The position numbers were made by a program, and so were the translations under genes. Shown here in pieces: positions 4,622 to 21,332 of a stretch of 22,185 nt of DNA (position 1 is its first letter; each line of letters opens with the position of its first letter). The stretch comes from a virus, in IMG/VR virus record IMGVR_UViG_3300005582_000127, positions 1 to 22,185 of that record; one strand, given 5' to 3'. The notes under the pieces are model-generated. The model saw only the letters and a list, made by a program, of their open reading frames with translations. It was not told the origin of the DNA and searched no databases.

Positions 4622-7051
4622 TTATGATGAACACCCAAAACAATCAAATTCGGAATCTTTTGGTTTTACAGTTAAATTTAAATCTGAATAATCAATACTC
4701 GGTACTTCTAAAATTACATTTTTTTTATCTTTTTTTGACATATCTAAAGCTAAATGTTTTGCTCCTGTTGATATCGCCTTGGTTCTAACATAATAACATA
4801 GTGTTTTTAAACCCTTTTCCCAAGAATGAAAATGAGATGATGTTATTTTTGATAAGGTCGGATTTACCATATAAATGTTCATAGATTGTGATTGGTCAAT
4901 AAATGGAGCTCTATCCGCCGCCATATTAATTAATTCTTTTTGTGATATTTCCCATATTGTTTTATATTTTAAAATAAGATGTTCAATTCTTTTAACTTTT
5001 TTATTGTAATTTTTATCATCAAAATCAATATAATTATTAAAATTAATATTTTGAATTGACCCTTCGTTTATTATTATCTCATTTTTTAAATCTTCAGACC
5101 ATATTTCAATTTTTTCAAAATCATAAATTAAATATTTATTTACAATCATAATCTCACCACCAACAACTCTTCTATTAAAAAGAGCAGAATGTGCGGGTTC
5201 TGTCATTTCAAAAGATCCTGTAATTTTAGCAGATGATGCGACAGGCATTTGTGCAGTAAATAAAGAATTACAAACACCGTATGTTTTTACATCTGTTTTT
5301 AATTTACTCCAATCCCACATACCCGAAAGTTGTGTACTATCAAGTCCCCACATATCAAATTGAAAAATTTCATTAGACATCGGTGACCCTTCAAAAAACG
5401 AATATGGTTTATATTTTTTTTCTTTACATAATTGGTTACTCTCATAAACTGAGGCGTAGTATATCGTTTCAAATATGTCTTTATTTAACTTTTTAGCCTC
5501 TTCAGAAGTAAAAATATAATCCATTAAATAAAAAACATCAGCTAAACCTTGAGTTCCTATTGCAATTGCTCTTTGTTCTAAACCACCTTTTAATCCTTTT
5601 TTTGTTGAGTACCTATTTATATTAATAACTTTATTTAAAGAACGAACAACCTTTCTAACTTCATTATAAAGTAAAGTAAAATCAAACTCACCTTTTACTA
5701 TAAAATTCTTTAATACCATAGATGATAATGTACAGATAGCCGTAGTCTCTTCGTCGGTAAATTGATAAATCTCGTTACATAAGTTAGATTGTTTTATAAC
5801 TCCAATATTTTTATGATTAGTTTTTTTATTAGCACTATCCTTAGCACATAAATAAGGAACGCCAGTCTCAACCTGAGATTCAATAATCTTACTCCATATA
5901 TCTTGAGCTTTTATTTTTTTACCAATACCCATTTGTACCGCTTTTCGATAATTTTCTTCATATTCATCACCATAGGTTTCTTGAAGTGGTTTAAGTCCTG
6001 ATTTTTTTATATCGTTTGGGCAAAACAAATACCAATCTTCGTTATTTTTAACCGCTCTCATGAAGTTGTCAGGAATCCAAAGTGCGGTAAATAAATCACG
6101 AGCTCTTAATTCTTCAGATCCCGTATTTTTTTTAATATCCAATAAGTCCATAATATCTTTATGCCAAGGCTCCAAGTAAATTGCTGCGGAACCAGGTCTA
6201 CGACCTTGTTGGTTAAAAAATCTTAACGATTCATTAACAATTTTTAAATATCTTAATAAACCACCCGAGTGTCCTCCTGATGTAGATATTCTACTTTCCT
6301 TACTTCTAATATTAGACATAGATAATCCAATCCCTGCAGCATCTGAAGAGTATGTTGAAATATCGTTTAATGTATCCAATAATCCTTGTCTTGAGTCTGA
6401 ATTATTATAATGTAAAACACAAGACGCCAATTGAGGTACTTTTGTACCAGAATTAATCATTATTGGTGTCGCTTTAGAAATAAGTTGGTTTGATAATGAT
6501 TTATAATATTCAATCGCGTCTTCAAAATTATCTGTAACCCATAAGGCAACCCTCATATACATATGTTGTGGTCTTTCAATTACTTTTCCTTGTGGTGTTT
6601 TTAGTAAATACATCTCTACTAATGATCTCCAAGCAAAATAATCAAAATTATAATCGTTATTATGATTTATAATTTCATCAATATTTTTTTCTCCGTATTT
6701 TTGAATTGTTTCCACTAACACGTCATTAATAATTCCATGTGAATGTAACTCTGACATTGTTTCTGAAAAACTTGGGTTAGTTTCTTTATGGTATGAAGAA
6801 ATCGCAACTGATGAAGCTAATCTTGAATAGTCGTGGTGACTACCAGTATACGCGGCAGCTATCTCATAAATTAATTTATCCAATTCTTTTGTTGTTATAT
6901 CACCTTCAGTTGGTACTGAAGTAATAACCTTTATGAATATCTCATCCGAATTAACTTTTAACCCTTTAGACGATCGTTTAACTCTGTTATATATTTTTTG
7001 GGGATTAAACGATACTGACTCCCCGTCTCTTTTAATTATTTTTAATGACAT
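4622..7051 (-). CDS. nrdA: Class I ribonucleoside-diphosphate reductase, large (alpha) subunit
   Basis: Reduces ribonucleoside diphosphates to deoxyribonucleotides, using a thiyl radical supplied by NrdB. The 809 residues hold an N-terminal ATP-cone (about 2-90, starting LKIIKRDGESVSFNP), which implies allosteric activity control. The catalytic set is complete: redox cysteines C211 (LASCVLH) and C440 (AICTLSS), the radical-site trio N423/C425/E427 (NLCNE), tyrosines Y753-Y754 (LCYYVRT) of the radical pathway, and a C-terminal redox pair C804/C807 (DCFGC). Other landmarks are RRPGSAAIYLEPWH (283-296), MPVASSAKITG (602-612) and WEISQKELINMAADRAPFID (700-719). These resemble the eukaryotic/Bacteroidota-like class I subgroup. 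The gene follows nrdB after a 14-base gap. Its leader is A-rich without a Shine-Dalgarno sequence. Nothing looks broken. Confidence 0.97.
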   Translation of the reverse strand: MSLKIIKRDGESVSFNPQKIYNRVKRSSKGLKVNSDEIFIKVITSVPTEGDITTKELDKLIYEIAAAYTGSHHDYSRLASSVAISSYHKETNPSFSETMSELHSHGIINDVLVETIQKYGEKNIDEIINHNNDYNFDYFAWRSLVEMYLLKTPQGKVIERPQHMYMRVALWVTDNFEDAIEYYKSLSNQLISKATPIMINSGTKVPQLASCVLHYNNSDSRQGLLDTLNDISTYSSDAAGIGLSMSNIRSKESRISTSGGHSGGLLRYLKIVNESLRFFNQQGRRPGSAAIYLEPWHKDIMDLLDIKKNTGSEELRARDLFTALWIPDNFMRAVKNNEDWYLFCPNDIKKSGLKPLQETYGDEYEENYRKAVQMGIGKKIKAQDIWSKIIESQVETGVPYLCAKDSANKKTNHKNIGVIKQSNLCNEIYQFTDEETTAICTLSSMVLKNFIVKGEFDFTLLYNEVRKVVRSLNKVININRYSTKKGLKGGLEQRAIAIGTQGLADVFYLMDYIFTSEEAKKLNKDIFETIYYASVYESNQLCKEKKYKPYSFFEGSPMSNEIFQFDMWGLDSTQLSGMWDWSKLKTDVKTYGVCNSLFTAQMPVASSAKITGSFEMTEPAHSALFNRRVVGGEIMIVNKYLIYDFEKIEIWSEDLKNEIIINEGSIQNINFNNYIDFDDKNYNKKVKRIEHLILKYKTIWEISQKELINMAADRAPFIDQSQSMNIYMVNPTLSKITSSHFHSWEKGLKTLCYYVRTKAISTGAKHLALDMSKKDKKNVILEVPSIDYSDLNLTVKPKDSEFDCFGCSS

Positions 7052-7065
7052 AATTTTGTTTTTTT

Positions 7066-8013
7066 TTAAAAATCTTCTGTAAATACTATAGTTTCATTCA
7101 ACTTTGCTTTTTGATATTCCATTGTTCTAGACTCAAAAAAGTTACCTTTGGTTTCAATTGCTATTTGTTCCATAAATTTAAATGGTTGGTTAACATTAAA
7201 CTCCTTATCACAACCCATTTTAACTAAAAGTCCGTCAACAACAAATTCCAAATATTGTATCATTAAATTAGAATTCATTCCAATTAATGATACAGGTAAA
7301 GATTCGGTTATAAATTCTTTTTCTATTTCTAATGCTGATAATACGATCTCTTTAATTCTTTTTTGTGATAATTTTTTTTCTAAATGGTTATTTAATAAAT
7401 GTATTGCAAAATCACAATGAAGGTTTTCATCTTTAAATATTAAAGAATTAGCATTACATAGTCCTTGCATAATCCCTTTTGATTTTAACCAAAATATAGA
7501 ACAAAAAGATCCAGAAAAGAAAATACCTTCTACGGCTGCGAATGCAACTAATCTTTCAGCAAAAGAATCGTTGTTAATCCATTCTATAGCCCATTTAGCC
7601 TTTTTCTGTATTGCTGGCATCTTATTTATGGCATCAAAACATTCGGATTTTTCTTTATCATCTTTTATGTAAGTATCAATTAATAATGAGTACATAAGTG
7701 AATGAATATTTTCCATAGCCAATTGAAATCCATAAAAGAATTTAGCTTCAGGGTATTGCACTTCTCTGTAAAAGTTTTCAGCTAAATTTTCATTAACGAT
7801 TCCGTCAGACGCGGCAAAAAAAGATAAAATATTTTTAATAAAGTATCTCTCATTATCTGTCAAAGCTTCCCAATCACGAATATCTGAAGATAGATCAACC
7901 TCTTCTGCTGTCCAAAAAGCAGCTTGATGCATTTTATAGTATTCCCAAATATCATTATGCTCTATTGGGAAGATAACAAACCTGTTTGGGTTTTCAATTA
8001 ATATTTTTTCCAT
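7066..8013 (-). CDS. nrdB: Class I ribonucleoside-diphosphate reductase, small (beta) subunit
   Basis: The 315-residue radical-generating subunit that pairs with NrdA. All diiron ligands can be placed by comparison with mammalian R2: D70 (FAASDGIV), E101 and H104 (AMENIH), E162 (AVEGIFF), E196 and H199 (KDENLH). The radical tyrosine is Y108 (HSLMYS). The segments [12 protein letters not shown] (33-44) and LLIDTYIKD (110-118) are nearly identical to the eukaryotic proteins, so this is the R2 subgroup also common in Bacteroidota. The C-terminal tail (TIVFTEDF) matches the family's acidic-phenylalanine tail that docks on NrdA. Position 106 is Leu where mammalian R2 has Glu next to the radical tyrosine. 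The gene begins 3 bases after the helicase stop codon and sits directly upstream of nrdA, so the holoenzyme is made from one transcript. Confidence 0.97.
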
Positions 8014-10923: not shown

Positions 10924-11907
10924 TTACTCGTCTGAATCTTCTAAGGACTCATCTAAAGAATAGTTAGAATCACCTAATTTTGTTATCCAATAATCTGAAT
11001 AATCTTTTTTGTATTTATCTAAAGATTCTTTTGTGTCTGAAATGTACCCTTGTGGTACTGCAATTATTTTTCCGTCTTTATATCCAAGACCATTTACGTG
11101 GTTTTTTAAAATAGAAATCTTGGTTCTAATAGCAAATGAGACTTTTCTACCGTTTTTAGTTGCGTCAATGTGACTAATACCTGATTTTTTTTGATTTCCA
11201 AATAAAAAGATTAAACTACTGGCTAACCATACAGCGGTACCTCCTTTAGCTTGGATCTCAGGTTGACCAAACGGATTATCCGCAAGTAAAACCCAAGGTT
11301 GGTTTAAGATTACAAGAGTATTGTAATAAGGGTAATCTTCTTTTTTAGATTTAGATATTCTTGAATGAATTCCCATTCCTATTTTATCGGCTAATACTTT
11401 AGCATTATGCATACCACCACCTTTACCGTCAAAAGTCATCTGACAAGGAATAGAACCAATTGAGTCCCATAAAAATAATAAACTATATGGTATATCTCCT
11501 TTTTCTTGTGAATCAAGAATATTATTAATAAACTCAGTTGCTTGTTCTATAACATCAAAAGAATCATTAAAAATAAACATTCCATCATATTCTCCAAGTT
11601 CATTTTTTTCGGCTTGTAATCCTAATTCAATCGCGTGTTCCCATGACCATTTTTTTTCGGTTATTATTAAAATAGGTAAATGCCCTTTACGTTGGGCGTC
11701 TGCAGCCGCTAATATCATTGCAGTGGTTTTACTCGTATTACTATGACCTAAAAACATACTAATTCCACCCATAACAGGGCCAGGTAATCCACACGCCTCT
11801 AAAAAAGACTCTCCACAATTATAAAAACTTTCATTTTTATATTTTGTTTTTGTAGAAAATTTATTTTTTATGTCATCTAAATTAAACTCTTTTTTTTTAA
11901 TTCCCAT
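10924..11907 (-). CDS. UvsX/RecA-like recombinase
   Basis: A 327-residue RecA-family protein, shorter than T4 UvsX (391), that would drive strand exchange and recombination-dependent replication. After a 40-residue N-terminal segment, the core begins with GPVMGGISMFLGHSNTSKTT. The Walker A element is GHSNTSKT (54-61), with Ser where the canonical Gly precedes the lysine. T4 UvsX also departs from the RecA consensus here. A glutamate at E84 (IITEKKW) is suitably placed for catalysis, Walker B is LLFLWDS (143-149, D148), and LNQPW (201-205) matches the RecA glutamine switch region. The C-terminus is acidic (SLEDSDE), as in many recombinases. Neighbours are gp32-like, RNase H and helicase genes, a T4-like replication context. 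The leader contains AAGAAAAG near the start, the nearest to a ribosome binding site seen here, but it is weak. Confidence 0.92.
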   Translation of the reverse strand: MGIKKKEFNLDDIKNKFSTKTKYKNESFYNCGESFLEACGLPGPVMGGISMFLGHSNTSKTTAMILAAADAQRKGHLPILIITEKKWSWEHAIELGLQAEKNELGEYDGMFIFNDSFDVIEQATEFINNILDSQEKGDIPYSLLFLWDSIGSIPCQMTFDGKGGGMHNAKVLADKIGMGIHSRISKSKKEDYPYYNTLVILNQPWVLLADNPFGQPEIQAKGGTAVWLASSLIFLFGNQKKSGISHIDATKNGRKVSFAIRTKISILKNHVNGLGYKDGKIIAVPQGYISDTKESLDKYKKDYSDYWITKLGDSNYSLDESLEDSDE

Positions 11908-12239: not shown

Positions 12240-12270
12240 AAAAATAACCCCCTAATATTAGGAGGTTATT
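12240..12270 (-). terminator. Hairpin terminator after the gp32-like SSB gene
   Basis: Two 14-base arms (AATAACCCCCTAAT and ATTAGGAGGTTATT, 12243-12270) pair with one mismatch and no loop bases beyond the tip, and are followed on the minus strand by five T residues (12244-12240). It lies 17 bases after the SSB stop codon. It should end or attenuate the SSB message, leaving the replication operon dependent on read-through or an unseen promoter. Confidence 0.75.
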
Positions 12271-12287
12271 ATAACTTTTGATATTAC

Positions 12288-13130
12288 TTAAAACGGTAAT
12301 TCGGAATCTTCTTTAGTTTCGTCAAATTTTTCTATAGTTTTTGATGTACCACCCAATGATATGTCACCAGTATCACCATAAACATATTTTTTAAGTTCTG
12401 TACTCCAAATAGGTGTTTCACCAACAGCTACTGCCTCTAAATATTCAACAGGTTTTTTAGAATATGCATCTGACCAAGTCATTTCATCTTTAACCCAACC
12501 ATCCATGATATCTTTATCCGTATGAATTGGTGTTGGATCTCCGTACATAATTGTTTGGATTACCGTATATTCTTTACCTACTGGTGTTTTAGCTTTTTTA
12601 AGTTCAATGATTAAATCTCTACCATTTTCAGAATCAGTAACATCTCCTTTAGCTTTCCAAATAGGTAATATCTTATCTAAAACTCCTTCATTTTTATAGT
12701 TGTGTTTAAATCTCCAAAACTTAATTCCGTCTTGTTCGTTATCTCTATCGATAACTTTTACAATGTAAAACAATCTAGAACGATACTGACCAGCTAAGTC
12801 TTTATCTTCTTTTTTTCCTGTTTTAATTAATTCGTTATAAACTTCACTAATAGGTGATCGTTCATTGTCGTTTTTTTCTGGATCATATAATTTAACCCAT
12901 TGTCCGTTTACTTGAATTTCGTGGTACCAAACCTCAACAAATGGTGATGACCCATCTTTTGTTGGTAAAATTCTTATTGTTCTTTGTGCGGATGTTTCGT
13001 TTTTCATCAAAATTGCTGAAAAATATCTCTTAAGTCTATCTTCTTGAGATATGTTTGCTTTTTGAGAACCTGTACTTTGTGTGTTTTTTTCGTATTGAGC
13101 CAATACTGAATCGAATGCTGAATTTGTCAT
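12288..13130 (-). CDS. Single-stranded DNA-binding protein, gp32-like
   Basis: A 280-residue protein matching the T4 gp32 layout (301 residues). It has a basic N-terminal segment for cooperative binding (to about residue 50, with QEDRLKRYFSAI), a DNA-binding core (TIRILPTKDGSSPFVEVWYHEI, 51-72, through about 240) and an acidic C-terminal tail. The core continues with QYRSRLFYIVKVIDRDNEQDGIKFWRF, written here only in part: YIVKVIDRD (122-130) and GIKFWRF (135-141). There is no cysteine anywhere. The T4 zinc ligands His64/Cys77/Cys87/Cys90 line up with H70 but with Asp, Asn/Arg and Ser in place of the cysteines, so zinc binding is lost. The last residues EDSELPF look like the acidic, Pro-Phe ending tip of bacterial SSB. 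The gene has its own promoter and is bracketed by two hairpin terminators. Confidence 0.9.
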   Translation of the reverse strand: MTNSAFDSVLAQYEKNTQSTGSQKANISQEDRLKRYFSAILMKNETSAQRTIRILPTKDGSSPFVEVWYHEIQVNGQWVKLYDPEKNDNERSPISEVYNELIKTGKKEDKDLAGQYRSRLFYIVKVIDRDNEQDGIKFWRFKHNYKNEGVLDKILPIWKAKGDVTDSENGRDLIIELKKAKTPVGKEYTVIQTIMYGDPTPIHTDKDIMDGWVKDEMTWSDAYSKKPVEYLEAVAVGETPIWSTELKKYVYGDTGDISLGGTSKTIEKFDETKEDSELPF

Positions 13131-13176: not shown

Positions 13177-13207
13177 TAAATATAATAAAATTTTATAGAA
13201 TGTCAAA
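13177..13207 (-). promoter_or_regulatory. Promoter of the gp32-like SSB gene, Bacteroidota-like
   Basis: On the minus strand TTTG (13207-13204) is followed by 19 bases and TATATTTA (13184-13177). This fits the Bacteroidota layout of a TTTG -33 box and TAnnTTTG -7 box with one mismatch. The same bases can be read as a sigma70-like TTGACA with TATATT 16 bases on. It lies just after an upstream terminator and about 47 bases before the SSB ATG. Confidence 0.55.
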
Positions 13208-13219
13208 CTTAAAACGCAT

Positions 13220-13242
13220 AAAAAAGGGGAGTTAGCTCCCCT
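13220..13242 (-). terminator. Intrinsic terminator after the 227-residue gene
   Basis: A GC-rich 7-base-pair stem (AGGGGAG paired with CTCCCCT, loop of four) is followed on the minus strand by six T residues (13225-13220). It is 27 bases past the stop of the PVDPTA-repeat gene and is the strongest terminator in the window. It separates the baseplate-side transcript from the SSB gene. Confidence 0.9.
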
Positions 13243-13268: not shown

Positions 13269-13952
13269 TTATAACTCATTATCATCATATAAGTTAAATG
13301 TTTTTTTAATCTCATTTGGTTGTTGGTTTTCAACATCGTCAGCTGTTAATATATATTCATTTTTTCCTGTTTTCTCCATTTCATCTTTTTTATCGTCAAA
13401 AAAATCTGTAAGTTTTTGTGTATAAGGATAAGAGTCTAAAGACCTCAACATTAATTTTTCTTCTGGTGTTTTTTCTCTAGATTTATCAAATTTAGTTTCT
13501 AAACTATTTATTTTATCTAATATCGTATCCATATTAGCTAATTTACTTTCTAAGTCATCAAGTTTTGTAAACATACTTTCCATAAACTCATCTTGTTTCA
13601 TTTTAATATCTTGTTGGGTACTAACTAAATCCGTGATATCTATCTCTTCAGTCTCGTTAGATTCCTCACTATCAACACCAACTTCTTCTACATCAGGATC
13701 GGTTTTAACGTCAACGGGTTCTGGAATAGTATCAGCAACTGGTTCAGTTGCGGTTGGATCTACAGGCGCGGTTGGATCTACAGGCGCAGTTGGATCTACA
13801 GGTGCAGTTGGATCTACAGGCGCAGTAGGATCTACAGGTGCGGTGGTTGGGTCTACAGGTGGTGTAGGAATTTCTGGTTGTTCTTTAATAATATAATTAT
13901 TTATTTGATTAAACCGTCGTAATTCTTCTAATATTGTTTTTTGTATACTCAT
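13269..13952 (-). CDS. Acidic coiled-coil protein with PVDPTA repeats
   Basis: A 227-residue protein of unknown function. Residues 1-25 form a short helix (ILEELRRFNQINNYI). Residues 32-68 are a low-complexity PVDPTA repeat of about six units. Residues 69-108 are strongly acidic (SEESNETEEIDITDL). Residues 110-162 are a likely coiled coil (FTKLDDLESKLANMDTIL). The C-terminal part carries KTPEEKLMLRSLDSYPYTQK and TGKNEYILTADDVEN. The last two blocks look like a defined folded end rather than disorder, so the N-terminal helix and the C-terminal domain may bind partners across a flexible spacer. It follows the hub-like gene and a 74-residue gene (12-base gap) and ends at an intrinsic terminator. 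A structural or assembly role is an inference from position. Confidence 0.85.
   Translation of the reverse strand: MSIQKTILEELRRFNQINNYIIKEQPEIPTPPVDPTTAPVDPTAPVDPTAPVDPTAPVDPTAPVDPTATEPVADTIPEPVDVKTDPDVEEVGVDSEESNETEEIDITDLVSTQQDIKMKQDEFMESMFTKLDDLESKLANMDTILDKINSLETKFDKSREKTPEEKLMLRSLDSYPYTQKLTDFFDDKKDEMEKTGKNEYILTADDVENQQPNEIKKTFNLYDDNEL
13752..13860 (-). repeat. 18-base in-frame minisatellite encoding PVDPTA
   Basis: On the plus strand GGATCTACAGG recurs at 13756, 13774, 13792, 13810 and 13828 (period 18), and a diverged 21-base unit follows at 13849. Units differ at silent positions, such as CGCGGTT and TGCAGTT endings. All lie within the 227-residue gene and keep its frame. Being in a coding gene with no spacers, it is not a CRISPR array. 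Confidence 0.95.
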
Positions 13953-14225: not shown

Positions 14226-17200
14226 TTATATAAAAGTTTTATAATATTTTGTAAATATTTCAACATATGTGTCATATTGAGTAAACTTACTATCATTTTT
14301 TTGCTTAAGTGTAAAATCTTTAATTTGTATAGCGGTACGCGGTGGTGTTGGTGGGCTTGTTGTGATATCTCCAAAAGCTTCCGCAGTATCCCAAGTAGTA
14401 AAGGTTAATTGGGCTAAAGCTTTTCCGTAACTTTTATTAATATCAGTATCGGTGTTTGCAGTAACCAAATTACTAATCATTGTTTCATATGAACTATAAA
14501 AAGAAATAATAAAATTAGTAGAGTCAGTTAAACTAGAAAAACTAACTAAAGGAACATCTTTACCACCAATCTTTGCACAAACTTGTTCTGAAATATAAGA
14601 ATCTAAACCACCCGGTTGTTTAGAGTCTGCTGATATCTCATAAGGATTATAATTTATAGTATTTAATACCTCTCCATCTATTTCAAATGAATTTATAGGT
14701 CTTGTGGTTGCAATACCTAATATTAAAGCTTTCATTTGTCGGCTTATTGGTTTGTTTTTAATCTCACTAACTAAATCAGTAAAGCTTATTGGGGTTCTTT
14801 CAATCGATACAAATGGTATACCAGTCTTATATTCACTGTTATTTAAACACGCAGCTTCTGAAGATAGTATTATTGGTGGGACATTTGGGTCGGCGTTAAT
14901 TAACGTTTCACCACTAAATCTAGCTGGCCTTGATTTCTCGATTTCGTCTTTCCAAGAATTAAGAATGTTTTTATTAACATTAATTATTAATTCGTTTACG
15001 TTTGGTAGGCTGTATTTTGGAATTCTAGTCCCTTTAAAGTCTGTTTTAAATCCAGATTCATCCACACTATGGTTTACCTCATAAATCCAATAAGGACCAT
15101 AAAAGAGTGGAATGTGTCTTAAAACAAAATACATCGTCGGTTGTATCATTACATTTCCAAGTGATGATACACCACAGGAGTATGATCTAGATTTATATAT
15201 ACTATACATAGAAACAGATTGTTGAGCGACTTGATCACCAGCAACCGAACTACCAATATCAGCAAAAACTTTAAATGACTCTGAAGTGTTTTTCATTTCT
15301 GACATATCTAAATCAAAACTTTTAAATATATTTTGATTTTGTATCCCAAAATCAACACTAAACCCAACAACTTTATTTGTTTTAGAATAATCTCTATTTG
15401 TATCGGAAACCCTTAAAGGATTATCAGCAGGAATTCTTAAATCAAAACTATCGTCACCAAATCGACTAAAGGAGTTTTCTTTTGGTTTTGGCATTTCAGA
15501 AGGATTACCCATATATAAACATAAAAATTTAGGACTGGATTTTGTATAATCCACTTCTAAATAAGTACCAAATAAAGAGTTACCTATAGTACTATCTTCA
15601 AGAGGTATTCCATTTTTTATTGCCTTTTGAATACCATAAAAATTAATGTAAGCCGGCATAGCAATAAACATAAACTTGTTATCGTCTAAAATAGTACTAA
15701 CAACTTGCATTAAATTTGTTTTAGGGTTTAATAATGGATCTATTCTTCTTACAACTTGTTCTACATCAATAACAAAAACATCACCTAGATCACTATTAGC
15801 CCTATCCATAAATAAAAAGTCCTCAAACAATGTCATATTTTTTAAATCAGAACCAGCGATCCACTTATCATTAAACCCTTTTAAGGTGTTATATAAACTT
15901 AATTTACCAACATCTCCTGTAACTGAAGACGCCGTTTGGGGTTTTACTACAATATCTTTTAAATTTGTACGTAAATATGAAAAAACTTTATTTAATATGC
16001 TTTGTTGTAAATCTTTTTGTTCGGATAAATAATTATTTATTATACCAGTAAAATCAAACCCATAAAAATTTGTGTTTTCTAATCTTTTTTGAACATATAC
16101 CCTAATAATTGGGTACAATTTAATAATATTTTCAGATGTAAATTCAACATTTTGATAAATAAAAAATTCAGAAACTAAAGATTTTTGATTTAAAGATTTT
16201 TGATTTATTACACTTTGGATTATAGGTCCTTTTGGTTTTACTGTTATTGTTGGTATTGTTAATTTTGGTAATGATAGTGGGGGACTAATCGTGTTTAAAC
16301 AATTAGTACCATATAATTCATAATTAACGCATTCGCTTTGAGCATTTGGGGTATTAACATAATAATCGTCATCACTTGTTAAATAATATGTTTGTTGTCC
16401 TACTGAATTAATATTATTTGGTGGATTAAACGTTGCGGTATTACTAATTTTTCTAGCACAAAACAACTTTAATGTTTGTGGGTTAGTATTTGGTATATTA
16501 TCAGATAATTTTAAAAAGTATATTTCATTTTCAATGTATGTACTATTATTACTAACAACCATTGAATCCGACAAATTATTAATAATAACATTAAAAGTTG
16601 TATTACCATCACAACAACTTTCAAAAGTATAATGACTACTAAGAGGTATTGGTCCTGAAGTTGGTAATGGTATTGGTGTTGATGTTGGTGTAGGACCTGG
16701 TGTCTGACTTGGTGTTGGCGATGGTGATGGTGTTGTTGTCGGAGTTGGTGTTGGACTAGGTAAACTTGGAAACTCAGGAATAACTTGGTTTGGGTAATCA
16801 ACTTCAGGTATTGTTGAAAATCCAATATACTTCCTTAAAGTTATCCAAGCGTCATTGTGTGCAACCATACTAGCTAGTAATGTTATCGATGACCCATCAC
16901 CAGGTAACGTACCCGTAACATACGGAGTAAACGTTATTTTATCTGTAGGACTAAACTCTTGTAAATTTGAAAACGAATTAAATAGTCTTCTGTCAAAATT
17001 TCCTGGATTTCCAATTTTAATTATACAATCAAATGATAAAAATTTACTAATACTTTCTGTAAAATTTTGAATTTGTTTTTCGCCTAATATTTTTCCATCA
17101 ACATCCTCACTACTCAAAGTAACACCAGTTTTATTTATAAAAAATAAATTTTTTAATTGTGAAAATAATCTTTTTTCATTTGTATTTTTTATTGAATTAC

Positions 17201-20200
17201 TTTTACTCTTTGATGGTGTAAGTATTTCATCTTTTAAAATTAAATCTTTAGTGGTAGGACTATAATTACAAAAAGTAATAAAATGTTTTTCAAATTGATC
17301 TAAAAGTTCTGGAGTAAATACTGAAAATATCTCATCAATTGATGAGTACTCTGATTGGGTAGTAGTTAAATCAAATGGGTTTTGCGTATTACTATTAGTA
17401 TTAATTACTTTTAAATATTGTGTAGGGTATGGTTTTTTTACCAATTTAGTATCAAAATATCCAAAATGAGAAGAAGCCCATAATGTCCTTACCGATCCAT
17501 TATACATTGCAGTATTTCCTGATATATCTTTTACTACCTTATTATCATTATTAAAACATTCATATATTGATTGATCAATTGGTATTCCACCCATAGATGG
17601 AAATAATAAAAACATAGGATTATTAGTAGAACTAAACTTATCCATATATTGGTAGTAATTTTGTTTTAATAAAGTTACCGTGTCTGTTGATGTGAAACCA
17701 CTTAAATTTAATACTGCCGGTTGAATTGATACGTACGGTATGTTTGTTGTTGATTGTGAATTTTTACAAATTTTAAAACCGTGATCATTGTATAAATCTA
17801 TAAACTCATTATTAGTCCCTCCACTTATTAATAAGTCTTCCCCAAAAAAATAGTTGTTTACTGCATTTATAACTTTTGGATAAAATCCAACATTTAGTGT
17901 TAATTTTGCTTGTCCAACAAATGGGATAGGGGGTGCAGATAAAAAATTCTCTAAAACTATTTTTTTTTCATTTCCTAAATAATCCGGAAAAGTATAAGTT
18001 TTAGTGATTAAAGAGTCTTTTGGGTCATACGCCGACGCGTAGTTAAAATCCTTCCAAACTGATGATAAAATATCAATATCAGATTCAATAAATTGTTTAT
18101 ATCTGTGCCAAATTGATCCGTACTTTAAAACCCAAGCGTATGGTACTTGGTGTACTGATGAATATTTTTTTAGCGTTGAAGCCAAATAATCTAAATCTGT
18201 AACCGATGTACCACCAATCTTAGATGATTTTAATCTTTCTTTTGTTGTTATTAGTGGTAGTGAGTTTAAAAACAAATAACCTAAAGCAACAAAAGAATTA
18301 TCTAATTTACTTTTATTGTTACTAACGCCATTCATTAATGCGTTTATGAAATATGGGCTATTTAATATTGAAGTAGTTTGAATTTTAGAATTAACATTAC
18401 CGTTATAGTTATTTCCATAATTTACATACGACTCTGTAATATATAAATCTTCGGGTTTTCTTTGATCGTAATACTCTTTTAGACTTAGTCTAGATATGAT
18501 TGGACTACTATTCGTTGCGTTAGTTAGATATAGTTGTGCGTGATTAGTTAATGGTTTATATGATGTTAATAAATTAATATCATCAAACGTTTCACTTTTA
18601 CTAACTCTTCCTATAGTTTTTTTAGATTCTAAATAATTAAAAGTTTTTGTTGTATTGTTGAATTCTTCAATATCTGTAACATTTTTACCGTTAGAGATAT
18701 TAGACGATATCCACTTTAAATTTGTTAATGGGTAAGTATCTAAAAAATTAAGTTTAGATGATTCTGTGTTTTTTAAGTAATCCGTTAAATTTTTAACATT
18801 TGGGTTATTTGCTGATATATTTTTGTATGTTTCACCAATTAGCGTATCAATACTATACACACCATTTTGAGTTTTTATTAAATTTTCAATATATTCCGTT
18901 TTATATAAACTTCTAATATATTTTTGCCAACTTTCACCATTACCATTATTAGAAATAGTTTTCATGTAATCTAAAAACGTAGTATAAGTAAAGTTATAAT
19001 GTTTAAGTAGTTGATTTAAAGGAATGTCATTAAAAACCGATAATCCAATATTTGTTCCCTCAGCATATGCAAAAAAGTCGTCAAGTTTATTTTTAATAGC
19101 TAACTTATTAAGTTTACCGTAATTTGATATTAAATACGACCTTTCAAATATTTCATAAAAAAATGAAATATTGTTTAGATCTTGATATGGTGTAGCCTTA
19201 AACGGGTATTCTATAGCATTTGATGAAACATATTGACTAACTGTTGTTGGGTTATTATAGATTGTGGAAGTATTTGTTGGTTTTGAAGTTTCAGTCGTTC
19301 CTTTTAAATACGCTTCAACAAACCCAATTTCTGGCCAAATTTTATAATCATAAGCCTTAGTCGTATTAATGACTGTTGAGTCTCCAGGATATTGTATAGT
19401 ATATAAGTCTCTACCATCTTTTTGTTTTTCATTAACAAAATATAAAGGCCAAGGATATACTACGTTATCTGAATTTAGTTTTCCACTTGATGTTTGTAAA
19501 CTTTTAACCGCATCAACTGAAAATGATTTATTTGGGGGGATTACCGCCAATAACCTATTTGGGTCATCTCTAACATCCCAAGCGGATTTATGTACGTCTT
19601 CCATTAATCGATAAAAACAATCCGCACCAGCAAAAATAATTGCAAAAATATTTCTAATTGTAGGTTTAAACCCTAACCCACCATCTGATGGATTTTTTAG
19701 TTGTCTATCAGCCAAAAGTTTTTCTAACGTTTTTGTTATTACTTCGTCATAGACATTTAATTTTTTTAATGCTGAATCTATTTCGTTCAAAAAACTTGGA
19801 GATTCGTAAGTCCCATCAGCAATTCTTTTATCTCCAAAAACAAAATAATCTGGTTCGTAATCAACAATAGTCCCGTCAGGTTTTAATACTTTTCCACCTA
19901 TAAGTTTTAATTTTTCTTCAGATAATTTAAATACATTAAATTTAACAACATCATTTGGATTGTTTAAATCCAATTGTGTCCCATTTCTATAATAGTAAGT
20001 CTCTTTAACATTATTATCATTTGATAACCACGTAGTTATATTTAATTTTTTAACAACATCCGATAATGTAATATTAACTGGTATATTTTTACTTCCAGAC
20101 TTACCAAAAGTAGTATTATCCTCAAGTAGTTTAGAATAATATTTAATTCTTTCATCTATTTTAGTGTTATAATCGTATTGGAATTGAGCGTCATATTGTT

Positions 20201-21332
20201 TTCTGTATGGGTAATATATTAACCCATCATTAACATAGTAACTACTTTTATCTAAATATTTATCTAAAGAGTTTTGGTATACGTATTTTTTTAAACTTTC
20301 TAAATTATACCTAAAATCTGCAACATCATTAAATTCTGTAAAATCACCAGTACCACCCTTAGATATATTCTCATTTAATTTTGCAACGTAATTGTTAGCT
20401 ATTGATATAAAATCTTTAATACTAAGTGGTGGAAAATTATCATCAATCAACCCCTTTTTCTTGTAAATATTGTAAACTTCTTCTAATACTTGTCTTCCCT
20501 TATACGAACTCGTAGTTGTTACCGTATTAGTTAACGGATCAGATACTGTTGTTTCAGTATTAAACATCGAAGGTGAAGTTATACTATACGCCAATGGGGT
20601 ATCAAATAATAAAGCGGTAAACTTTCCAATTAATGTTAAAGATATATCATAATTCCCTGTAGATGAATCAAATCTAGAATTAAAAGTAACTAAAGATAAC
20701 CTATATCTAATAGCTTTACCATAATACCCCTTTAATGTTAAATAAAATAAAGGATACGGAAAATTAAAAAACGCAGAATAAATTGAGCTTTCACCCTGCT
20801 CAAATAAAGCTCTACCTTGTATGTCAATCATCTGAATACTAACTTCAGGTACACCCGTACCTTTAATCTTTACATTAATGGATTTAATACCTAAAAGTTG
20901 TGTATCTTCATAATTTTTAATACTATTTTTAAATTTTGGTTTACCGTCTACGGTTACCGTATTTTCTTGTCTTTGGTTAGACCCATTACCAGATCTAGAT
21001 TCCATACCTGTTAATTGATCAGACCAACTAGTATCAAATGCGGTCTTACCTTTAGGTTGTAAAAAATTAATTTTTAAGTTATCATCACCACCAAATATCG
21101 TAGCAATTGTAGTATTCATAACAGCAGAGTCTAGCGATTCACCTATGGCTAATTTTGTTCTTGGGACAATAAAGGTTTCTAAATTGGCGTAGTAAACTAA
21201 ATCTTCGTGGTCTACTAACCTTGGTGATCTTAAGTTGTTTGAATCGTATATCTCATTTGGATTTATAAGTAACACATTATCATACTCAGTTTCAATAAAT
21301 ATTTTTTTTGTGTCCCCTATTCTATCTGCCAT
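14226..21332 (-). CDS. Giant 2,368-residue baseplate hub-like protein
   Basis: One uninterrupted frame of 7.1 kb. Residues 146-245 look like a tail-hub beta-barrel half: VPEVSIQMIDIQGRALFEQ, then FPYPLFYLTLKGYYGKAIRY, and IGKFTALLFD. Near residues 1890-2110 a second hub-like half appears, with FMFIAMPAYINFYG and a block GNVMIQPTMYF, IPLFYGPYWIYEVNH, ESGFKTDFKGTRIP. This pattern of strands is seen in gp27-type hub proteins. Between the halves lie about 1,600 residues, including a Pro/Thr-rich linker (1521-1563) and a Cys-containing domain from C1573-C1574. The last 240 residues include a segment (about 2190-2295: NYNPYEIS, FSSLTDSTNFIISFYSSYE) vaguely like lysozyme or glucosaminidase folds. 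It overlaps the gp53-like gene by 11 bases. Assignment as hub is inference from pattern and gene context. Confidence 0.8.
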   Translation of the reverse strand: MADRIGDTKKIFIETEYDNVLLINPNEIYDSNNLRSPRLVDHEDLVYYANLETFIVPRTKLAIGESLDSAVMNTTIATIFGGDDNLKINFLQPKGKTAFDTSWSDQLTGMESRSGNGSNQRQENTVTVDGKPKFKNSIKNYEDTQLLGIKSINVKIKGTGVPEVSIQMIDIQGRALFEQGESSIYSAFFNFPYPLFYLTLKGYYGKAIRYRLSLVTFNSRFDSSTGNYDISLTLIGKFTALLFDTPLAYSITSPSMFNTETTVSDPLTNTVTTTSSYKGRQVLEEVYNIYKKKGLIDDNFPPLSIKDFISIANNYVAKLNENISKGGTGDFTEFNDVADFRYNLESLKKYVYQNSLDKYLDKSSYYVNDGLIYYPYRKQYDAQFQYDYNTKIDERIKYYSKLLEDNTTFGKSGSKNIPVNITLSDVVKKLNITTWLSNDNNVKETYYYRNGTQLDLNNPNDVVKFNVFKLSEEKLKLIGGKVLKPDGTIVDYEPDYFVFGDKRIADGTYESPSFLNEIDSALKKLNVYDEVITKTLEKLLADRQLKNPSDGGLGFKPTIRNIFAIIFAGADCFYRLMEDVHKSAWDVRDDPNRLLAVIPPNKSFSVDAVKSLQTSSGKLNSDNVVYPWPLYFVNEKQKDGRDLYTIQYPGDSTVINTTKAYDYKIWPEIGFVEAYLKGTTETSKPTNTSTIYNNPTTVSQYVSSNAIEYPFKATPYQDLNNISFFYEIFERSYLISNYGKLNKLAIKNKLDDFFAYAEGTNIGLSVFNDIPLNQLLKHYNFTYTTFLDYMKTISNNGNGESWQKYIRSLYKTEYIENLIKTQNGVYSIDTLIGETYKNISANNPNVKNLTDYLKNTESSKLNFLDTYPLTNLKWISSNISNGKNVTDIEEFNNTTKTFNYLESKKTIGRVSKSETFDDINLLTSYKPLTNHAQLYLTNATNSSPIISRLSLKEYYDQRKPEDLYITESYVNYGNNYNGNVNSKIQTTSILNSPYFINALMNGVSNNKSKLDNSFVALGYLFLNSLPLITTKERLKSSKIGGTSVTDLDYLASTLKKYSSVHQVPYAWVLKYGSIWHRYKQFIESDIDILSSVWKDFNYASAYDPKDSLITKTYTFPDYLGNEKKIVLENFLSAPPIPFVGQAKLTLNVGFYPKVINAVNNYFFGEDLLISGGTNNEFIDLYNDHGFKICKNSQSTTNIPYVSIQPAVLNLSGFTSTDTVTLLKQNYYQYMDKFSSTNNPMFLLFPSMGGIPIDQSIYECFNNDNKVVKDISGNTAMYNGSVRTLWASSHFGYFDTKLVKKPYPTQYLKVINTNSNTQNPFDLTTTQSEYSSIDEIFSVFTPELLDQFEKHFITFCNYSPTTKDLILKDEILTPSKSKSNSIKNTNEKRLFSQLKNLFFINKTGVTLSSEDVDGKILGEKQIQNFTESISKFLSFDCIIKIGNPGNFDRRLFNSFSNLQEFSPTDKITFTPYVTGTLPGDGSSITLLASMVAHNDAWITLRKYIGFSTIPEVDYPNQVIPEFPSLPSPTPTPTTTPSPSPTPSQTPGPTPTSTPIPLPTSGPIPLSSHYTFESCCDGNTTFNVIINNLSDSMVVSNNSTYIENEIYFLKLSDNIPNTNPQTLKLFCARKISNTATFNPPNNINSVGQQTYYLTSDDDYYVNTPNAQSECVNYELYGTNCLNTISPPLSLPKLTIPTITVKPKGPIIQSVINQKSLNQKSLVSEFFIYQNVEFTSENIIKLYPIIRVYVQKRLENTNFYGFDFTGIINNYLSEQKDLQQSILNKVFSYLRTNLKDIVVKPQTASSVTGDVGKLSLYNTLKGFNDKWIAGSDLKNMTLFEDFLFMDRANSDLGDVFVIDVEQVVRRIDPLLNPKTNLMQVVSTILDDNKFMFIAMPAYINFYGIQKAIKNGIPLEDSTIGNSLFGTYLEVDYTKSSPKFLCLYMGNPSEMPKPKENSFSRFGDDSFDLRIPADNPLRVSDTNRDYSKTNKVVGFSVDFGIQNQNIFKSFDLDMSEMKNTSESFKVFADIGSSVAGDQVAQQSVSMYSIYKSRSYSCGVSSLGNVMIQPTMYFVLRHIPLFYGPYWIYEVNHSVDESGFKTDFKGTRIPKYSLPNVNELIINVNKNILNSWKDEIEKSRPARFSGETLINADPNVPPIILSSEAACLNNSEYKTGIPFVSIERTPISFTDLVSEIKNKPISRQMKALILGIATTRPINSFEIDGEVLNTINYNPYEISADSKQPGGLDSYISEQVCAKIGGKDVPLVSFSSLTDSTNFIISFYSSYETMISNLVTANTDTDINKSYGKALAQLTFTTWDTAEAFGDITTSPPTPPRTAIQIKDFTLKQKNDSKFTQYDTYVEIFTKYYKTFI
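16177..16206 (-). repeat. 15-base perfect tandem duplication in the hub-like gene
   Basis: The plus-strand unit AAAGATTTTTGATTT occurs twice in a row (16177-16191 and 16192-16206). It encodes a doubled NQKSL in the hub-like protein, keeping the frame. It is probably a recent slippage event in a tolerant linker just after the Cys-containing domain. Confidence 0.9.
16645..16772 (-). repeat. Low-complexity Pro/Thr linker coding repeat
   Basis: This stretch encodes alternating Pro and Thr/Ser (TPTPTTTPSPSPTPSQTPGP and similar), roughly residues 1521-1563 of the hub-like protein. The DNA is a loose GGTGTTGGTGTT-type repeat on the plus strand. Such linkers usually tether separate domains and are prone to slippage. 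Confidence 0.85.

Follow-up and report, generated by a model that had tools for sequence, protein, structure and literature searches.

Why would a phage single-stranded DNA (ssDNA)-binding protein of the gp32 type end like a bacterial SSB, and which proteins would such an end call upon? The question is raised by a 22-kb virus record, analysed here over its full 22,185 nucleotides (hereafter, the window), in which the product of a minus-strand gene has the C-terminus ...TIEKFDETKEDSELPF, with KEDSELPF as the last residues of its tail. In textbooks, gp32 stands as the model phage SSB, with a tail of its own that is directed at phage proteins. The tip of Escherichia coli SSB recruits more than 17 proteins, and its last two residues, Pro and Phe, bind a pocket on RecO (PMC7913777).

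We assigned the 280-aa protein to gp32, and not to the bacterial SSBs, because it matched the Pfam gp32 profile PF08804 above the curated cut-off (E = 6.1e-14, 53 bits, cut-off 26.8) as well as two PHROG single-strand-binding families, and because the PDB matches of its AlphaFold2 model (input of 43 sequences from the window and the locus) were limited to gp32 of RB69 and T4 (Foldseek, E ≤ 0.001; 2a1k, 1gpc, 8gme and 2atq, with E = 5e-9 for RB69 gp32 2a1k), a gp2.5-like fold being absent at that threshold. Against the bacterial SSB profiles PF00436/TIGR00621 the protein gave no PF00436 match, and a PDB search with its sequence returned no match. The model was confident over the core (pLDDT ~90) and fell below 50 for residues 254–280; the family profile, the gp32 core fold and an acidic disordered C-terminal domain are all present. 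A zinc ribbon with Cys/His ligands, which is a feature of T4 gp32 that the Pfam profile does not demand, is missing, since the protein has no Cys. Distant relatives that share its Leu-Pro-Phe (LPF) end (L220, L244, L197 and L221) retain a Cys-rich, zinc-ribbon-like motif, and Cys is absent from the window protein and from the majority of near relatives, which points to an apparent loss of the zinc site inside the family and not to exclusion from it.

Table 1. Coordinates of the gp32-type gene, its tail and its surroundings in the window.
Feature	Position	Strand	Basis
gp32-type ssDNA-binding protein gene, 280 aa	12288..13130	(-)	Pfam PF08804, PHROG SSB, AF2 model
SSB-Ct-like acidic tip EDSELPF, extreme C-terminus	12291..12311	(-)	direct reading, conservation
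Disordered C-terminal tail, residues 254–280, linker variable among relatives	12291..12371	(-)	pLDDT <50, alignment
UvsX/RecA-like recombinase, next widely conserved gene downstream of gp32	10924..11907	(-)	PHROG 97; 39% identity to immuto recombinase
Uncharacterised 150-aa protein, candidate phage partner	9420..9872	(-)	beside LPF-type gp32, absent from immuto clade
Uncharacterised 227-aa Pro-rich/coiled-coil-like protein, candidate partner	13269..13952	(-)	beside LPF-type gp32, absent from immuto clade
Promoter-like TTGACA-16-TATATT upstream of gp32	13179..13206	(-)	consensus match only
Terminator-like hairpin between upstream 227-aa gene and gp32	13225..13242	(-)	sequence
Terminator-like hairpin directly after gp32	12243..12270	(-)	RNA fold -14.9 kcal/mol, z=-3.7

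Read on the minus strand, the EDSELPF codons are followed by a TAA stop at 12288–12290. The range 12288–12345, to which the sequence-only reading had assigned a bacterial-SSB-like tip, spans the last 18 residues and the stop, and the disordered tail starts further in, near residue 254 (~12371). The tip itself was confirmed by this reading and by its conservation, and it has the make-up of an SSB-Ct motif, with acidic residues and then a hydrophobic residue, Pro and Phe at a free C-terminus, on a disordered tail and conserved among relatives.

Homologue ends were neither variable nor missing. Among complete close relatives (at least 77% identity, n = 78), 77 ended in LPF and one in LPFF; the latter (L045:2840-3694) runs one residue past the usual tip and offers a natural test of the exact C-terminal position. 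To avoid nearest-relative bias, a second sample was picked by the core motif FWRFKHNY, and all 113 of its complete proteins, at 27–83% identity to the window protein, ended in [L/M]PF (LPF 106, MPF 7), as did 80 of 80 proteins in each of two more scans with distant members as queries (the L220 ring and the ~410-aa L221 clade), these three sets sharing some sequences. An IPF end was never seen in the phage gp32 samples. The residues before the tip differ completely between groups (e.g., ...DDDDDDDDDDDLPF, ...NSGNENQSDSSDYDDLPF and ...VDPQANDEPSEDLPF), and the tip codons vary synonymously (TTA, CTA, CTT or TTG for L; CCA, CCT, CCG or CCC for P; TTC or TTT for F). When 30 diverse LPF members were aligned (lowest pairwise identity 29%), 31 of the 234 gap-free columns were invariant, the final L, P and F being three of them; the invariance of FWRFKHNY in that alignment is partly due to sampling by the same motif. 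In a long relative with 337 ORFs, the PF end was unique to gp32, and an identical protein with the same end occurred on a separate contig (L001). A second tail motif, D-P-Q at residues -14 to -12, lies ~10 residues before LPF in most near-clade members (L001-L080, L154-L271); it is absent from the L221 clade and from the window protein, which still has the tip.

These comparisons establish, at the level of sequence, that the tip is far beyond chance and fixed under purifying selection. A chance ending or an annotation artefact (a wrong frame or a 3′ sequencing error), for which we found no supporting point, is ruled out by the conservation together with the synonymous codons, and we give it practically no credence in view of the same end in L001 and in hundreds of relatives. 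We also consider it very improbable that the acidic tail does no more than cover the gp32 binding cleft as a DNA mimic, with the final LPF partnerless: the acidic tails of gp2.5, gp32 and Enc34 ORF6 do modulate DNA binding (PMC5686142), but charge does not explain an L-P-F that is invariant at the exact C-terminus while length and linker vary.

The sequence-only reading had claimed that no Pro-Phe end is found on known gp32 proteins, and both lineages compared bear this out: none of 78 proteins around T4 and T4-like cyanophage gp32 has one (ends LNDL, LNGL, LAND and LAEE, with ...LDDLLNDL in T4 gp32 itself), nor does any of 54 in the clade of Flavobacterium phage immuto (ends FDDLFN and similar). 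A scan of genome contigs yielded four distant gp32 proteins only, all without the tip. Evolutionarily, a gp32-core tree, built after removal of the last 25 residues, had a single branch that separated all LPF proteins from the rest (support 100/99, with one change of state); tree and sample conservation therefore trace the tip to a single gain, then maintenance through deep divergence, with no loss in the sample.

The form of the tip was compared with that of bacterial SSBs, as the sequence-only reading had proposed for Bacteroidota hosts. Every SSB from 30 Bacteroidota genomes, the best-scoring 30 and not a random set, ended in LPF, unlike the Pseudomonadota SSBs, which ended in IPF (29 of 29). 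The phage tip, being LPF mostly, MPF rarely and IPF never, matches the Bacteroidota tips in sequence, and the phage clade thus bears the form of its presumed host. The LPF match is not unique to Bacteroidota, since LPF SSB tips are known in other bacteria too, e.g., Firmicutes. As a counterpoint to the fit between LPF and host, the immuto clade, from the same host phylum, has a DDLFN tip instead.

A Bacteroidota host is supported for the window phage lineage by several lines of evidence, the L221-type proteins, which form the most divergent LPF clade, standing outside this assignment. Type IX secretion sorting domains occurred above cut-off in relatives (three with Por_Secre_tail, two with CHU_C), Shine-Dalgarno-like 5-mers were few upstream of genes (3 of 205 in the 292-kb relative G001, versus 6 of 15 in T4), the nearest NrdB proteins were from Tenacibaculum phages, and Flavobacterium phage immuto held the only relative of the recombinase (39% identity) among 50,697 phage records; sorting domains, scarce Shine-Dalgarno sites and nearest relatives fit such a host. 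The classic Bacteroidota promoter pattern was not above chance in the window. The carriers of the sorting domains are large proteins (L592 in G001, L593 in G177, L594 in G175, L595 and L596), and such C-terminal domains would allow export of phage proteins by the host secretion system.

Functionally, we think it rather likely that the gp32 body bears, as its tip, a working SSB-Ct docking motif through which RecO and other SSB-interacting proteins of the host are recruited. The disordered acidic tail would end in the bacterial motif [D/E/N]-L-P-F-COOH in its Bacteroidota form, and, with the gp32 core coating phage ssDNA, the free tips would present Pro-Phe as a ligand that the pocket of SSB-interacting host proteins could bind; with tips so offered, host factors would thus serve phage ssDNA without host SSB. 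The most plausible of these factors would be the RecO/RecR mediator, loading the phage UvsX/RecA-like recombinase, possibly joined by restart or repair factors. RecO was present in all 41 Bacteroidota genomes. We infer that the tip would dock in such pockets, that its partners would come from the host and that RecO would be the main one. The same tip evidence would also serve a decoy, in which abundant gp32 titrates host SSB-interacting proteins off host DNA and so blocks repair, restart or defence, and the promoter-like and terminator-like elements that flank gp32 are compatible with high, separate expression. We nevertheless regard a decoy as improbable, since it has no need for placement on the main coating protein, where recruitment to gp32-coated DNA would be automatic, although the data do not separate a decoy from a recruiter. 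The sequence-only reading of the tip as mimicry, either to capture host SSB partners or to compete for them, is supported in part.

The chief rival to a host partner is a phage-encoded one. The tip could dock on the polymerase, the primase-helicase, UvsX or one of the clade-specific 150-aa and 227-aa neighbours, in which case its likeness to the host tip would reflect convergence on the same pocket type or inheritance of a host-derived pocket. There is precedent in T4 and T7, where the tails of gp32 and gp2.5 dock on phage proteins: the C-terminal region of T4 gp32 recruits the phage helicase Dda (PMC11551737), and, counting likewise for a phage partner, staphylococcal phage SSBs act with cognate phage recombinases (PMC5499656). 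The relative G001 (292 kb, the contig of L012) encodes T4-like genes for gp20, gp23, S77 prohead protease, a gp43-like polymerase and a gp61/DnaG-like primase; having their own polymerase and primase, and a DnaB-like helicase, these phages need not borrow the host replisome. Both neighbours, moreover, occur alongside gp32 of the LPF type, and neither was detected in the immuto clade. A phage partner alone, however, does not account for the tip having the L of Bacteroidota SSBs in place of I, the family matches listed for the long relative included no homologue of any known SSB-Ct binder, and the 150-aa neighbour has no PDB fold match; on balance, we hold a phage-encoded partner to be possible, though somewhat unlikely.

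In transcription order, gp32 is preceded by 74-aa and 227-aa uncharacterised proteins and followed by a 95-aa protein, the UvsX/RecA-like recombinase, a 5′-3′ exonuclease, the 150-aa protein, the DnaB-like helicase, NrdB, NrdA and baseplate genes; the core arrangement of SSB, recombinase, exonuclease, helicase and Nrd genes recurs in phage immuto. The 150-aa protein was rejected as a known SSB-binding fold, there being no PDB match at E ≤ 0.001 despite a good AlphaFold2 model (pLDDT 84). The 227-aa protein, considered by position as a gp59 homologue, was rejected as well, as it has no Pfam match, is Pro-rich and coiled-coil-like, and the gp59 profile was negative in 11 relatives. An 18-bp tandem repeat (4.8 copies, window 13753–13838) encodes its Pro-rich repeat, and a 2368-aa ORF (window 14226–21332) adjoins the gp32 block, a position conserved in relatives (e.g., L177 and G001). 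Class I NrdA/NrdB genes lie between the helicase and the baseplate genes (window 4622–8013), where G001 has a B12-type ribonucleotide reductase-like gene (L097:2249-4108); G001 also encodes an Fe/Mn superoxide dismutase (L098:15854-16588) and, at other sites, has genes for glutamine synthetase, DnaJ and glycosyltransferase.

What the LPF phages encode for recombination bears on recruitment of host proteins by the tip. In T4, UvsY and gp59 link gp32 to recombinase and helicase loading. Profile searches detected UvsY and gp59 in T4, S-RIM14 and Mosig and in none of 11 LPF phages, a negative to be read with the facts that divergent proteins may escape profiles and that most contigs are incomplete; both were also undetected in immuto, which has no LPF, so neither absence is specific to LPF. 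Searches of G001 with phmmer for the T4 clamp, clamp loader, gp46/47 and Dda gave nothing at E ≤ 0.01. A bacterial-type ssb (PF00436) was found in none of 15 long relatives, and a co-encoded bacterial-type SSB was accordingly dismissed. We tentatively suggest, as a proposal that may well fail, a deep clade of Bacteroidota T4-like phages with a mixed recombination machine, in which the LPF tip of gp32 would draw RecO/RecR and further SSB clients from the host, replacing the apparently absent UvsY/gp59.

Compared with known systems, the window protein combines features otherwise found apart. With gp32 of T4 and RB69 it shares the core fold, an acidic disordered C-terminus and a T4-like context (UvsX, DnaB/gp41-type helicase, gp20 and gp23), but differs from the T4 protein in lacking the zinc ribbon and in its short tail ending in ELPF. 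With Bacteroidota SSBs (tip DDLPF) it shares acidic residues and then L-P-F at the extreme C-terminus, a disordered tail and the coating of ssDNA, whereas the bodies differ, the likeness being one of sequence only. T7 gp2.5 and Enc34 ORF6 are likewise SSBs of non-bacterial type whose C-terminal tail is acidic, but their fold is unlike gp32; T7 gp2.5 ends in an aromatic residue, its tail serves the T7 polymerase and primase-helicase, and we know of no host-type LPF among SSBs of this type. Some phages are already known to encode complete bacterial-type SSBs, host-like tail included (PMC5499656), and SPP1 G36P and 80alpha Ssb have a host-like C-terminal region in this way, as whole homologues of bacterial SSB, whereas the window gp32 resembles SSB in its tip only. 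The moraphages, Bacteroidota freshwater jumbo phages, share T4-like core genes and, with G001, glutamine synthetase and DnaJ, a likeness by traits; the paper describing them lists SSB among the core genes and does not mention SSB tips (PMC12619734). A full-text literature search found no paper on a gp32 with an LPF C-terminus and, as far as that search found, a bacterial tip on a gp32 body is undescribed.

With a host-type tip fixed on gp32 throughout a large clade, three residues may give an unrelated protein access to the bacterial SSB hub. The terminal Phe offers a simple handle on how far Bacteroidota T4-like phages depend on host repair proteins, and the choice between an LPF and an IPF tip may serve as a sequence mark for host prediction.
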